Shown here piece by piece: positions 32,671 through 43,974 of a DNA stretch of 64,000 nucleotides. Under the pieces are notes generated by a model. The model was not told where the DNA came from. It did not search any database and saw only the letters and a program-made list of their open reading frames with translations. The stretch lies in contig NZ_KB893717.1 of NCBI RefSeq assembly GCF_000374165.1, forward strand, positions 62,001 through 126,000. Direction: 5' to 3'. The position numbers were made by a program, and so were the translations under genes. Source of the DNA: Parafrankia elaeagni. GTDB taxonomy: Bacteria; Actinomycetota; Actinomycetes; Frankiales; Frankiaceae. Numbering within the stretch: position 1 is the first letter of the stretch; every line of letters begins with the position of its first letter.

Positions 32671-34530
32671 TCAGCCGCCCGCCCCGCGAGCGGTGCTTCC
32701 GCGGCGGGGCGCATCCAGGCCAGGCGGCTGGTCATAGAGCGCCTCATAGCGGTCCGCGTGGAGGCGGTGGATGACGGCGCGGCGGAGCTTGCCGGTCGCG
32801 GTGAGTTCCCCGGCCTCCTGGGAGAGATCGCGCGGGAGGATGGCGAAGTGCTTGATCTGCGCGGGCCGGGCGACCCGCTGGTTGGCGGCGTCGACGATCC
32901 CGCCGACCAGCGCCTGTACCCGGGGGTGCGCCGCGAGCGTGGGAAGGTCGGCGGGGAGACCCCGCTCCCCCGCCCAGGCCTCGATCTCCTCCTCGTCCAG
33001 GGTCAGCAGGCTCACCAGGTAGGGCCGGCGGTCCCCGTAGCTGACGGCGTGCGAGATCCAGCGTGACTGGCGCAGCAGGTTCTCCAGCACTGCCGGGGCG
33101 ACGTTCTTGCCACCGGCGGTGATGATGACGTCCTTGCGGCGGCCGGTGATGGTCAGGAAGCCGTCCGGGTCGAGGCGCCCGAGGTCCCCGCTGTGCAGCC
33201 AGCCGTCGTGCAGCACCTCCGCGGTCGCCACCGGGTCGCCCCAGTACCCGGCGAAGACGTGCGGGCCGCGCAGCAGGATCTCGCCGTCGGCGGCGATCGC
33301 CAGCTCCAGGCCGGGAACCGCCCTGCCCACCGTTCCGACCCGGTTGTCCTCGAACCGGTTCACCGTGCCCAGTCCGGTGCTCTCCGTCATGCCGTAGCCC
33401 TCGAGCACGGGCACGCCCGCCGCCCGGAAGAACTCGAGCACGTCCGGCGAGATGGGGGCGGTGCCCGACAGGGCGAGCCGTACCCGGCCGCCGAGGACGG
33501 CGCGTACCGGTGCCAGCGCGTCGTGGGCGGCGGCCTGGCTCGGGGCCTGGCTCGGGGCCTGGCTCGGGGTGAGGATCGCGGACATCCGCGCGTGGATCTT
33601 CTCGAAGACCCGGGGGACCGCGGGGAGCACGGTGGGCCGGACCTCGGCGAGCTCGCTGACCACCTGCGTGATGTCCCCGCCGAAGTAGGCCAGCGTCGCC
33701 CCGAAGCGCAGGGCACCGAACTGCATCATCTGGCCGAACATGTGCGCCAGCGGGAGGAACAGGTAGATGACGTCGTCGGGGCTGAAGTAGCCGAGCTCCG
33801 CGGCCGTCCCGCAGCCCGCGACGAGGTTGCCGTGGGTGAGGACGCACCCCTTGAGCGGGCCGGCGCTCCCCGAGGTATAGATGATCATGCAGGGTTCGTC
33901 GACCGTGACGGCCGCTCGCCGCAGCCGCGCCACCTCGGCGTCCCGGTGCCCGCCGCACCTGGCGGCATCGCCGAGCGTCGTGACGTCGATCGCGACGTCG
34001 GTCACCCCGGCCGGAGCCGGGGCGGCGGCAGCGCCGGGAGCGTCGGCCTCGGAGCCGGCCGGCGCGTCCTCCATGGTCAGCACCGTCCGCAGGCCGGGCA
34101 CCGCGCCGGCGGTCAGCCCGAGGCGCGCCAGGGCCCCGAGGTCCTCCACGACCAGCACCACCGCGCCGGAGTCCCGGAGGATCCCGGTGCACTCCTGCGG
34201 AGAGCTGGTCGGGTAGATCGGCACGACCGCGGCCCCGGCCGCCAGGGCGGCGAACGCCACCCGGCTCCACTCGGGCCGGGAGTTCGCCAGGATGGCGACC
34301 CTGTCCCGCGGCGCCACGCCCAGGGCGACCAGGCCGGCGGCGAGGTCCGCCGTGTCGGTGGCGACGTCGGTGAAGGTCCGGTCCCGCCACGCGCCGCCGT
34401 CGCGGTACCGGACGGCGGCGCGCTCGCCGAACCTCGCCGCCGCGAGGAACGGCAGGTCCGACATCACCCGCAGGTCGAGGTCGGCCGGGGCAGGCGGCGG
34501 GACGGGCGGCGGGGCGGTGTGGAGCGTCAC
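32671..34530 (-). CDS. long-chain acyl-CoA synthetase (AMP-binding) family protein
   Basis: 619 aa. ANL-fold adenylating enzyme: P-loop IIYTSGSAGPLKG, the A5-like motif GYGMTESTG, HSGDLGRLDPDGFLTITGRRKD, and the C-terminal KNVAPAVLENLLR hinge. It activates a fatty acid to acyl-CoA (or acyl-AMP). SQAP is repeated three times near residue 330. The start is GTG 34530 after GAGAGGA. It is the last of nine codirectional genes, 25 bases after the permease; it may supply the starter acyl chain or recycle acids for the lipid pathway encoded upstream. Confidence 0.9.
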   Translation of the reverse strand: MTLHTAPPPVPPPAPADLDLRVMSDLPFLAAARFGERAAVRYRDGGAWRDRTFTDVATDTADLAAGLVALGVAPRDRVAILANSRPEWSRVAFAALAAGAAVVPIYPTSSPQECTGILRDSGAVVLVVEDLGALARLGLTAGAVPGLRTVLTMEDAPAGSEADAPGAAAAPAPAGVTDVAIDVTTLGDAARCGGHRDAEVARLRRAAVTVDEPCMIIYTSGSAGPLKGCVLTHGNLVAGCGTAAELGYFSPDDVIYLFLPLAHMFGQMMQFGALRFGATLAYFGGDITQVVSELAEVRPTVLPAVPRVFEKIHARMSAILTPSQAPSQAPSQAAAHDALAPVRAVLGGRVRLALSGTAPISPDVLEFFRAAGVPVLEGYGMTESTGLGTVNRFEDNRVGTVGRAVPGLELAIAADGEILLRGPHVFAGYWGDPVATAEVLHDGWLHSGDLGRLDPDGFLTITGRRKDVIITAGGKNVAPAVLENLLRQSRWISHAVSYGDRRPYLVSLLTLDEEEIEAWAGERGLPADLPTLAAHPRVQALVGGIVDAANQRVARPAQIKHFAILPRDLSQEAGELTATGKLRRAVIHRLHADRYEALYDQPPGLDAPRRGSTARGAGG

Positions 34531-34555
34531 GATGGTCCTCTCGGGTTCCGGCCGG

Positions 34556-42652: not shown

Positions 42653-43974
42653 AGCACCGACTCCGCCCCGGTGGAGGAGCCGACCAGTGCGCCACTCGGA
42701 GCCGTCGCCAGCGCCGCCGTCGCCGCCCGCGTGCCGTCAGACACCCGCGTGCCGTCAGACACCCGCGTGCCGTCAGACACCCGCGTGCCGTCAGGCGACC
42801 GCGCCCCGGAGACCACTCGTGCCTCCGCCTCGAGCTCGTCGAGGAAGGCCTGGACGAACTCGCGCATGCGGACCAGATCCAGCCAGTCACCGGCATGTCC
42901 GTGGTCGGCCCCGCAGGCCCGCACATTGGTCCGGTCGTAGGTGCGCTCGTAGCACAGGTAAGGCAGGTAGTGACGCATCTTCCGAAGCAGGACCGTCTCG
43001 ACCAGGTTGTCCCGCGGTCTGGGGGCGCCGGAGAACTCCGCCTCCAGTGCCAGCCCGATCAGCGGCGGCACCCCGTAGACGAGGTCGGCCAGGCTGAGCG
43101 GCCGTTCGTTGGTCAGGTGATACACCCGACCCGTCGTCGCGGCTCCCTGATCGAGGATCGCCAGCATCTCGTCGACCACCACGTCGACCGGGATCAAATT
43201 GATACTCGCCTGTCGCTTGGCGGGAAGCCGGACCGAAGGCGTGCCCTCGGGGATGTGCCCCGCCGCCCTCCACAGGAGCTCGACCACCTTGTAGAGGCCG
43301 GTCCGCGAGCTCGTGCGCAGGGTGCGCGAGTGCCCGATGATGATGCTCGGGCGGAAGATCCGGACACCGACAGCATGGCTGGCCGCATGTTCCCGGACCA
43401 GCCCCTCCGCGTACCACTTGCTTTCCTCGTACACGTTGGTGAACGCCTCCGGGCAGCGGGTGTCCTCCTCGGTGATCAGGCCTTCCCTCGTTCCCGAGAC
43501 GTAGGCGGTGCTGATGTAGTTGACGGCATGCAGACCGGACGTATCGGCCAGCTCGGCGAGCAGCTGGCGCGTGCCGTCCACATTCGACGACCACACCTCG
43601 CCGCGGTCCTCCTCGCGGAAGGACAGATTGGCCGCGCCGTGCAGCAACTCGAACCCGTCTGTGGCCCGCACCCACGCCTGCCAGCCCGGGTCATCCCGTA
43701 GGCGCAGCACACGCAGATCCGCGGGCAGGACAGTGACCCGGCGCGCGAACGCCCCGACGTCGAAAACCGTCCCGCAGTCCGCGGCCGCGGTCGCCAACGC
43801 GGCCAGCACCCGCTCCCGCGGAGCCGCGCCGGGCGCCCCCCTCGCCAGACACAGCACCCGCCCGTCCGGATGGGAGTGCAACCATTCCAGAAGTACGTGA
43901 GAACCCAGGAAACCAACGGTTCCCGTGCAGAGAAGATCCACTCGCTCTCTCGTTTCTTTGCCAGTCACCAGCAC
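42649..43974 (-). CDS. SDR-type acyl-thioester reductase-like protein
   Basis: 441 aa extended SDR. Rossmann motif LCTGTVGFLGSHVLLEWL, LLHGAANLSFREEDR, NVDGTRQLL, then NYISTAYVSG and YEESKWYAE (catalytic Tyr-x3-Lys), and FRPSIIIGHSRT. This is the pattern of thioester-reductase domains and fatty acyl reductases, which reduce acyl-CoA/ACP to aldehyde or alcohol with NAD(P)H. The C-terminal tail carries VSDGTR repeats. The first in-frame start is GTG 43974; GTG 43941, next to GAGAG and one residue before the Rossmann strand, may be the true start. It is the first gene of the nine-gene operon. Confidence 0.85.
   Translation of the reverse strand: MLVTGKETRERVDLLCTGTVGFLGSHVLLEWLHSHPDGRVLCLARGAPGAAPRERVLAALATAAADCGTVFDVGAFARRVTVLPADLRVLRLRDDPGWQAWVRATDGFELLHGAANLSFREEDRGEVWSSNVDGTRQLLAELADTSGLHAVNYISTAYVSGTREGLITEEDTRCPEAFTNVYEESKWYAEGLVREHAASHAVGVRIFRPSIIIGHSRTLRTSSRTGLYKVVELLWRAAGHIPEGTPSVRLPAKRQASINLIPVDVVVDEMLAILDQGAATTGRVYHLTNERPLSLADLVYGVPPLIGLALEAEFSGAPRPRDNLVETVLLRKMRHYLPYLCYERTYDRTNVRACGADHGHAGDWLDLVRMREFVQAFLDELEAEARVVSGARSPDGTRVSDGTRVSDGTRVSDGTRAATAALATAPSGALVGSSTGAESVL
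42731..42802. repeat. four 18-nt repeats in the SDR gene
   Basis: GTGCCGTCAGACACCCGC occurs three times exactly (42731-42784), with a fourth degenerate copy to 42802. They encode VSDGTR units in the disordered tail. Confidence 0.9.

Follow-up and report, generated by a model that had tools for sequence, protein, structure and literature searches.

Plant cuticular wax is made by LACS, KCS (3-ketoacyl-CoA synthase), a fatty acyl reductase and an ABC exporter. Carboxylic acid reductases unite adenylation, carrier and reductase domains (A-T-R) in one protein, and the Ole hydrocarbon cluster consists of OleABCD, with an OleD-type SDR and an OleB hydrolase. In the accessible text of the literature, ketal pyruvyltransferases, CsaB and Pvg1p among them, act on saccharide acceptors, save for the putative enzymes of the chitinimine and megapolipeptin clusters. 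Chitinimine is described there as an amphiphile with surfactant properties, and its pyruvate-derived acetal, across the C21/C23 oxygens, likely comes from a putative pyruvyl transferase (PMC13291983). An NRPS/PKS cluster on a plasmid of Anabaena sp. WA102 (L080, NZ_CP011457.1) contains an SRPBCC gene next to a desaturase gene, with a DevBCA exporter following; the genome paper refers to one protein resembling a short-chain dehydrogenase, and its accessible part names no product.

The locus studied here, within a 64-kb window (i.e. the whole stretch of DNA analysed), shares the enzyme classes of the plant wax pathway and its logic of activation, elongation, reduction and export, but is without the reductase/dehydratase elongation set, uses another exporter class and adds a pyruvyltransferase and a desaturase-SRPBCC pair. 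As in the chitinimine and megapolipeptin clusters, a putative polysaccharide pyruvyl transferase lies in a lipid cluster, a likeness by annotation; those systems use PUFA-synthase-like plus PKS-NRPS assembly lines (PMC13291983), whereas the window encodes single enzymes (KCS, FadD, SDR and desaturase). Besides its gene order, the Anabaena cluster has in common with the window a DevA-type ATPase (39%) and an acyl-activating enzyme, but its acyl-activating protein carries a carrier domain and it includes KS, AT, an NRPS with thioesterase and DevB; no match to the SDR or pyruvyltransferase of the window was detected in the 33 kb stretch compared. The sequence-only reading of this DNA knew of no described cluster with this nine-gene composition, and none was found in the open-access papers searched, yet two sub-modules of the operon recur in other bacteria.

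Organization of the operon

Nine co-directional genes were confirmed on the minus strand, with all open reading frames in place (Table 1). Seven of the nine family labels given earlier are borne out by scores above Pfam cut-offs (NAD_binding_4, PS_pyruv_trans, FA_desaturase, FAE1_CUT1_RppA/KCS, ABC_tran, FtsX and AMP-binding), the SRPBCC label is weak by profile and the GNAT-like label is unsupported.

Table 1. Genes of the operon, from 43974 downwards, and the adjacent tRNA gene
Feature	Position	Strand	Length (aa)	Evidence	Junction with next gene
SDR, thioester-reductase/fatty-acyl-reductase (male sterility) type	42649..43974	-	441	Pfam NAD_binding_4, 6.7e-33	GTGA overlap
PF04230 (polysaccharide pyruvyl transferase family) protein	41294..42652	-	452	PS_pyruv_trans, 6.4e-10	ATGA overlap
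SRPBCC-like protein	40806..41297	-	163	36% identity to protein preceding Anabaena WA102 desaturase	GTGA overlap
Membrane fatty-acid desaturase family protein	39688..40809	-		FA_desaturase (PF00487), 2.2e-32; start GTG 40809 or ATG 40806	TTGA overlap
Protein of unassigned family (GNAT-like in the sequence-only reading)	38879..39691	-	270	Ka/Ks 0.16	GTGA overlap
3-Ketoacyl-CoA synthase/type III PKS superfamily condensing enzyme	37734..38882	-	382	FAE1_CUT1_RppA, 8.6e-19	ATGA, formal overlap
ABC transporter ATPase, LolD/DevA/MacB type	36886..37737	-		ABC_tran, 1.5e-37; likelier start GTG 37659 behind GGAAAGGAG	GTGA overlap
ABC permease with two FtsX domains	34556..36889	-	777	FtsX, 2.4e-22, two stretches	25 nt gap before the ligase start, GTG 34530
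Long-chain acyl-CoA synthetase (FadD type)	32671..34530	-	619	AMP-binding, 9.7e-77, and AMP-binding_C_3	
tRNA-Ala(TGC)	44970..45043	-		ARAGORN, Rfam; 1 kb upstream of operon	

The claim of 4-nt overlaps at seven of eight junctions, with one 25-base gap, holds formally and in frame for the window, but the true number of overlaps is probably six. In Parafrankia colletiae, six of the seven overlaps are in frame and the KCS/ATPase ATGA is out of frame; in the ATPase frame of that genome, the first start following a stop is a GTG, which has a ribosome-binding site ahead of it and is the likely start. Its counterpart in the window lies 74 nt past the KCS stop, and this GTG, with its ribosome-binding site, rather than the ATG at 37737, is probably the ATPase start. 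The KCS and ATPase genes therefore probably do not overlap, because the ATGA is out of frame in P. colletiae and the matching GTG exists at 37659. The desaturase start is ambiguous, the ATG being as possible as the overlapping GTG, and for the SRPBCC gene the start is ATG 41297 and not the first in-frame GTG (41471).

Overlaps were called at 7/8 operon junctions as compared to 1/12 of the window's other co-directional pairs with a spacing <300 nt (one-sided Fisher test, P = 0.0008; P = 0.004 with the operon counted as 6/8), a rough background from one home-made GC-frame caller and a small comparison set of 12 pairs. A promoter and terminator scan detected nothing at the operon start and a single site of each kind, both within the operon; against shuffled sequences there was no strong excess of promoter-like (1 versus a mean of 0.3) or terminator-like sites (1 versus 2.0).

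The pyruvyltransferase-family enzyme

The PF04230 protein scored 39.8 bits against its Pfam profile, exceeding the gathering score of 25.3. The nearest NCBIfam model was CsaB (TIGR03609; 1e-23), at 84.2 bits below the cut-off of 213.1. The PEP site of CsaB comprises R148, R306, H308 and K328, with a K328R variant being active. R159, R317, H319 and R339, conserved in all 13 sequences of an alignment that includes those of the window and P. colletiae, match these residues, each at +11, in a mapping made by spacing, CsaB itself standing outside the alignment.

It is possible, albeit unlikely, that this enzyme acts on a sugar and that the operon contributes the lipid anchor of a pyruvylated glycolipid or polysaccharide, with glycosyltransferases supplied from elsewhere. 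The saccharide substrates reported for CsaB and Pvg1p, the rank of CsaB as nearest model and a GT4-type gene at 54229-55731, 10 kb from the operon, agree with such a product. Against it, Pfam detected no glycosyltransferase in the operon, and a pyruvyltransferase gene lies beside a fused SDR-ligase in two other actinobacterial classes. The acceptor residues of CsaB, Y14 and F16, would by spacing correspond to L23 and A25, a weak mapping made without an aligned CsaB sequence and at an offset different from that for the PEP site. The chitinimine precedent also points away from a sugar acceptor (PMC13291983).

The condensing enzyme

The four best PDB relatives of the condensing enzyme are 3-ketoacyl-CoA synthases (81–85 bits). 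The catalytic triad of KCS enzymes is Cys-His-Asn, and C144, H296 and N329 align with the KCS sequences among the PDB relatives. The protein contains GNTSS and is without HPGG, which sets it apart from the majority of 18 bacterial relatives in the comparison; HPGG is present in 16 of these, and HTAG occupies that position in the window protein. Relatives with 27–32% identity were present in 17 of the 19 class genomes with matches, and the 15–20 kb stretches around 14 of these 17 held no relative of other window genes except ABC ATPases.

A type III PKS-like route, in which the ligase makes a starter, the condensing enzyme cyclises an alkylpyrone or alkylresorcinol and the SDR, pyruvyltransferase and other enzymes decorate it, is improbable. 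Chal_sti_synt domains accompany the FAE1_CUT1_RppA match, DpgA is the best NCBIfam match (88.5 bits; cut-off 425) and Pks11 and Steely1 are among the PDB relatives, all in favour of such a route. The top PDB scores nevertheless belong to KCS enzymes, with Pks11 close at 75 bits; HTAG replaces HPGG, GNTSSASLYYAL resembles a KCS motif and no further resorcinol-pathway family was found in the operon. The dialkylresorcinol and Dpg pathways as such were rejected, since scores against DarB and DpgA fell far short of the model cut-offs.

The reductase and ligase

The SDR carries TGxxGFLG and YxxxK motifs and scored 105.4 bits against the NCBIfam Thioester-redct model (TIGR01746), under the cut-off of 213.35, with NAD_binding_4 well over its own. 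Judged by their names, its top PDB relatives comprise a type I PKS, MxaA, carboxylic acid reductases and an NRPS. The ligase contains TSGSAGPLKG and GKLRR, its nearest NCBIfam model is FadD11, below cut-off, and no carrier domain (Pfam PP-binding) was detected. Adenylating and reductase families for a carboxylic acid recall the carboxylic acid reductases, but the genes are separate and without a PP-binding domain, and this identity was rejected; in the fused relatives, moreover, the reductase comes first. An Ole-type route to long-chain olefins or beta-lactones is highly improbable and was rejected: the operon does hold a condensing enzyme, an SDR and an AMP-ligase, but the SDR match to OleD is faint (20.3 bits, cut-off 580) beside its 105 bits as a thioester reductase, no hydrolase family (OleB-type) occurs in the operon and the 14 models listed with the condensing enzyme include no OleA.

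In two other actinobacterial classes (loci L066 and L067), SDR and ligase occupy one reading frame of 905–909 aa, whereas they are separate genes in the window. The fusion adjoins a pyruvyltransferase gene 41–42% identical to that of the window, and a GMC oxidoreductase gene lies one short gene further on, giving the order pyruvyltransferase, SDR-ligase fusion, short gene, GMC oxidoreductase. No KCS, desaturase, SRPBCC or exporter relative was found beside the fused protein on these contigs, one of which is just 6.2 kb. Within the same family as the window, one other genome (G233) has an SDR gene next to an AMP-binding gene, the two being separate. On Caballeronia, Streptomyces and Mycobacterium avium plasmids, the relatives of KCS and SDR had no further operon relative adjoining.

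The SRPBCC-desaturase pair, the exporter and the 270-aa protein

The desaturase scored 113.3 bits against PF00487 (cut-off 29.7), contains three His boxes (HESGH, HFLHH and HTEHH) and is 41–42% identical to that of Anabaena WA102; an enzyme of this family could also perform hydroxylation or acetylene formation. Its SRPBCC neighbour matched Pfam Polyketide_cyc weakly (E = 0.2, below cut-off). A search of 72,556 plasmids at E = 1e-3 gave a single SRPBCC relative, that of Anabaena WA102 (E = 9e-23; 2.6e-28 in a small locus set), located directly before the desaturase relative, as in the window. The SRPBCC profile matched 27 of 346 genomes of the phylum. Since none of the 19 actinobacterial SRPBCC loci obtained from 28 non-own matches (2.2–3.5 kb) had another operon gene adjoining, desaturase included, the pair is not general among actinobacteria.

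The ATPase has Walker A and LSGGE motifs and scored 206 bits against LolD and 198 bits against DevA, both below cut-off; a crude scan of the permease gave eight hydrophobic segments. This exporter family also transports lipoproteins and peptides.

The 270-aa protein has AAAEKP repeats near its C-terminus. The GNAT-like label attached to it earlier found no support: Pfam gave no match at E = 10, the PDB gave no credible relative and, up to E = 10, no GNAT protein, and no relative turned up on plasmids. Among 394 class genomes it matched only the window's own and P. colletiae, two weak matches being due to chance. A role as an acyl-transfer enzyme is a guess.

Conservation and genomic setting

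All nine genes are collinear in P. colletiae Cc1.17, and Ka/Ks between the two loci ranged from 0.06 to 0.49 for all nine, which are therefore real genes under purifying selection. The operon was present in 2/36 genomes of the family and 2/394 of the class. A KCS scan over contigs of 84,980 species, with exact 8-residue patterns that reach near relatives only, detected one locus, that of P. colletiae; scans of viral contigs for the desaturase and pyruvyltransferase gave no matches. The tRNA-Ala(TGC) gene marks the edge of a region differing between Parafrankia genomes: three genomes (G072, G142 and G355) share this tRNA and, close to it, the solute-binding-protein gene, with operon sequence absent from the stretches compared.

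Proposed pathway

We lean towards reading the operon as one transcription unit dedicated to a specialised lipid for export, because gene order and six in-frame overlaps are kept in P. colletiae and all nine genes are under purifying selection. We propose an exported, unsaturated, reduced and pyruvylated lipid as the product; co-transcription, all reactions, their order, the substrate and export are what we infer. The acyl-CoA synthetase would activate a fatty acid and the KCS-type enzyme would add a C2 unit, giving a beta-ketoacyl-CoA. No beta-keto reductase, dehydratase or enoyl reductase was recognised in the operon and full elongation would thus need housekeeping enzymes. In the tail, a double bond or comparable group may be introduced by the desaturase, for which the SRPBCC protein would act as lipid-binding partner. 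The SDR would convert the thioester to an aldehyde or alcohol together with the ligase, a cooperation suggested because relatives carry both in one protein. The PF04230 protein would transfer pyruvate from PEP onto lipid hydroxyls, creating an anionic head, and the LolD/DevA-type ATPase and FtsX permease may move the lipid out of the membrane.

Synthesis and export of a lipid is supported because a pyruvyltransferase gene adjoins the fused SDR-ligase in two other classes, because the SRPBCC-desaturase-DevBCA order recurs in the Anabaena NRPS/PKS cluster, because pyruvyltransferase residues match the CsaB PEP site by spacing and because a like-annotated enzyme probably makes the chitinimine pyruvate acetal. 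The elongated, unsaturated, reduced and exported lipid suggested by the sequence-only reading was a good inference, strengthened by the SDR-ligase fusion and the recurring modules.

A more specific and speculative version envisages anionic lipids of a new class, residing in the membrane or secreted. Each would be an unsaturated alkane-1,3-diol, lengthened by a C2 unit, whose two hydroxyls pyruvate closes to form a six-membered cyclic acetal. The 3-keto group would come from the KCS, its reduction and that of the thioester would yield the 1,3-diol, and the PF04230 enzyme would supply the charged head with no sugar or carrier protein. If so, pyruvyltransferase and SDR-ligase would constitute a general carrier-free route to pyruvylated lipids in distant actinobacteria.

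If the broader proposal is true, the combination of a pyruvyltransferase with acyl activation, C2 extension and thioester reduction, and with an exporter, would represent a new lipid route, and the enzyme reaction is testable with simple diol substrates. A fused SDR-ligase beside a pyruvyltransferase and the SRPBCC-desaturase pair provide search handles for related lipids in unstudied bacteria. The operon is also a candidate source of envelope chemistry that differs between strains of a root-symbiont genus. The host is an actinobacterium related to nitrogen-fixing root symbionts.

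Operon architecture and conservation

The nine open reading frames of the sequence-only reading and their order were borne out in the window, as were seven formal in-frame 4-nt overlaps and the 25-nt gap; the overlap between the condensing-enzyme (KCS) and ATPase genes is doubtful. All nine genes are present and collinear in Parafrankia colletiae Cc1.17, with protein identities of 89–99%; that strain shares six in-frame overlaps and the 25-nt gap. Only six overlaps were counted as sound because the ATGA at the KCS/ATPase junction is not in frame in P. colletiae, where the ATPase starts with GTG, and the window has the counterpart of this GTG at 37659 (behind GGAAAGGAG, 74 nt past the KCS stop). 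A 4-nt overlap was found at 7/8 operon junctions versus 1/12 of the remaining closely spaced co-directional gene pairs of the window (P = 0.0008, or 0.004 with the operon counted as 6/8), a rough comparison made with one home-made GC-frame gene caller and a small background of 12 pairs. Ka/Ks ratios against P. colletiae ranged from 0.06 (KCS) to 0.49 (SRPBCC), with the ATPase ratio computed from the GTG at 37623. All nine are real genes that have been kept together.

Short tandem repeats with units of 6, 12 or 18 nt were observed within four operon genes.

Tandem repeats in operon genes, and SDR-ligase fusions beside pyruvyltransferase genes of two other actinobacterial classes (L066, L067)
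Feature	Position or locus	Placement or size	Remark
Tandem repeat	42726-42794	near 3' end of SDR gene	repeat length unlike P. colletiae
Tandem repeat	41360-41405	near 3' end of pyruvyltransferase gene	repeat length unlike P. colletiae
Tandem repeat	38904-38962	near 3' end of 270-aa gene	repeat length unlike P. colletiae
Tandem repeat	33532-33569	within ligase gene	
SDR-ligase fusion	L067	909 aa	Pfam NAD_binding_4 + AMP-binding
SDR-ligase fusion	L066	905 aa	similarity to window SDR and ligase in one reading frame

Protein families and distribution

Family labels proposed from sequence held for seven proteins, which scored above the Pfam gathering threshold. The SRPBCC label depends on a profile match that is weak (E 0.2) together with an Anabaena relative, and the 'GNAT-like' label of the 270-aa protein was unsupported by Pfam, NCBIfam, PDB and plasmid relative searches. 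All NCBIfam models listed for the nine proteins (the best 25 matches for the ATPase and ligase) scored below their curated cut-offs, indicating that the operon proteins are at most distant members of families named in NCBIfam. The condensing enzyme carries a Cys-His-Asn triad and lacks the HPGG motif present in 16/18 bacterial relatives; its best four solved relatives are 3-ketoacyl-CoA synthases (81–85 bits), with Pks11 at 75 bits. Three histidine boxes are present in the desaturase.

Among 394 class genomes, a sample drawn from a larger class, KCS matches at 1e-20 occurred in 19 (two at 99–100% identity and 17 at 27–32%), matches to the 270-aa protein at 1e-3 in four (two real, two chance) and the pyruvyltransferase profile at 1e-25 in two. 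SDR matches at 1e-25 were found in 3/36 genomes of the family, two of the three being the operon. P. colletiae was the sole match in a pattern scan of genome contigs, which detects near relatives only and possibly did not include the window's own genome.

Recurrence of two sub-modules

The pyruvyltransferase matched eight of 386 phylum genomes at 1e-12, namely the window's own, two at 41–42% identity and five at 26–30%. Profile searches in the classes of the two closer relatives detected it in 1/27 and 1/3 genomes, so the enzyme is rare there too. Adjacent to both of these pyruvyltransferases is a gene for a single protein with the SDR part first and the ligase part second (see table), and gene fusion is a classical sign of two activities acting together. 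A GMC oxidoreductase gene lies one short gene beyond the fusion at both loci, and this four-gene order may represent a separate lipid cluster. In one further genome of the Parafrankia family (G233), an SDR relative (33–36%) adjoins a separate AMP-binding gene.

The short gene at L066 has a sub-cut-off ATC_hydrolase match. Tandem pairs of distant pyruvyltransferase relatives (24–28% identity) were seen at four further actinobacterial loci (L068, L070, L073 and L074). On a plasmid of Streptomyces sp. NBC_00690 (L081:6664-10323), an SDR relative (36%) adjoins genes for an LnmK-type acyltransferase/decarboxylase, ACP and KS.

For the SRPBCC protein, a single relative at E 1e-3 was found among 72,556 plasmids, in Anabaena sp. 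WA102, 73 nt 5' of the best match to the desaturase (41% identity, 83% coverage); desaturase matches in 13 other plasmid records were at most 30% identical. DevB, DevC and DevA genes follow the Anabaena desaturase, and the SRPBCC-desaturase pair is preceded by genes for an AMP-binding protein with a carrier domain, KS, AT and a C-A-PCP-TE NRPS, with a transposase gene between. The available part of the genome paper describes this stretch as at least part of an NRPS cluster that includes a short-chain-dehydrogenase-like protein, and leaves the product unnamed (PMC4907049). Actinobacterial SRPBCC relatives were more distant than that of Anabaena (at most 63 bits), and none adjoined a desaturase relative in 19 loci.

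Proposed pathway

The proposal of lipid synthesis and export was supported in part, with independent evidence coming from the gene fusion and module recurrence. The operon is a predicted specialised-lipid cluster, new as a variant, with a putative product. It was undescribed in the open-access literature searched for the gene combination, Parafrankia lipids and pyruvylated lipids.

In the proposed route, the ligase would activate the substrate, the KCS would add C2, the desaturase with the SRPBCC protein would modify the tail, the SDR would reduce the thioester and the pyruvyltransferase would pyruvylate the product before export. In the boldest form, KCS action followed by reduction would yield a 1,3-diol, and the product would be its pyruvate acetal; no beta-keto reductase, the missing step, was recognised in the operon.

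Pyruvyltransferase residues R159, R317, H319 and R339 were kept in 13/13 aligned sequences and stand at a constant +11 offset from R148, R306, H308 and K328 of the ketal pyruvyltransferase CsaB, a match by spacing rather than by alignment with CsaB. These CsaB residues have been linked to PEP binding via mutants or docking, and a K328R variant is active (PMC10435577). A lipid acceptor for the window enzyme, if used, has a precedent in chitinimine, in which NMR placed pyruvate between the oxygens at C21 and C23 of a lipid chain, forming a six-membered acetal (PMC13291983). The authors consider ChtnH, a putative pyruvyl transferase, the likely enzyme and report surfactant properties for the chitinimine compounds; for megapolipeptin, a related enzyme is said to catalyse esterification instead (PMC13291983).

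Locus history and surroundings

A tRNA-Ala(TGC) gene lies 1 kb upstream of the operon, and three other Parafrankia genomes have the same tRNA near the same solute-binding-protein gene. No operon sequence was found beside that tRNA in the stretches retrieved from these three genomes; in two of them the contig continues for just 4 kb and 0.2 kb past the tRNA. In one (G072), ~12 kb of different DNA, which encodes a MacB-type permease, a sigma factor and an aldo/keto reductase among other proteins, separates the tRNA from an amidohydrolase gene of 93% identity that lies at the end of the contig; the orthology of this gene is uncertain because the amidohydrolase family has 6–10 matches per genome. 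Third-position GC is 0.85–0.92 in the first five operon genes and 0.95 in the FtsX and ligase genes. Acquisition of the operon at a tRNA-linked variable site fits these observations, which are not proof of it.

Convergent on the operon end is a gene for a WD40-repeat Ser/Thr protein kinase (30218-32596), found in the same place in P. colletiae. At the other end, ~3 kb (43975-47066) contains no convincing gene except the tRNA-Ala, and GC content falls to 58% within it (46000-46999).
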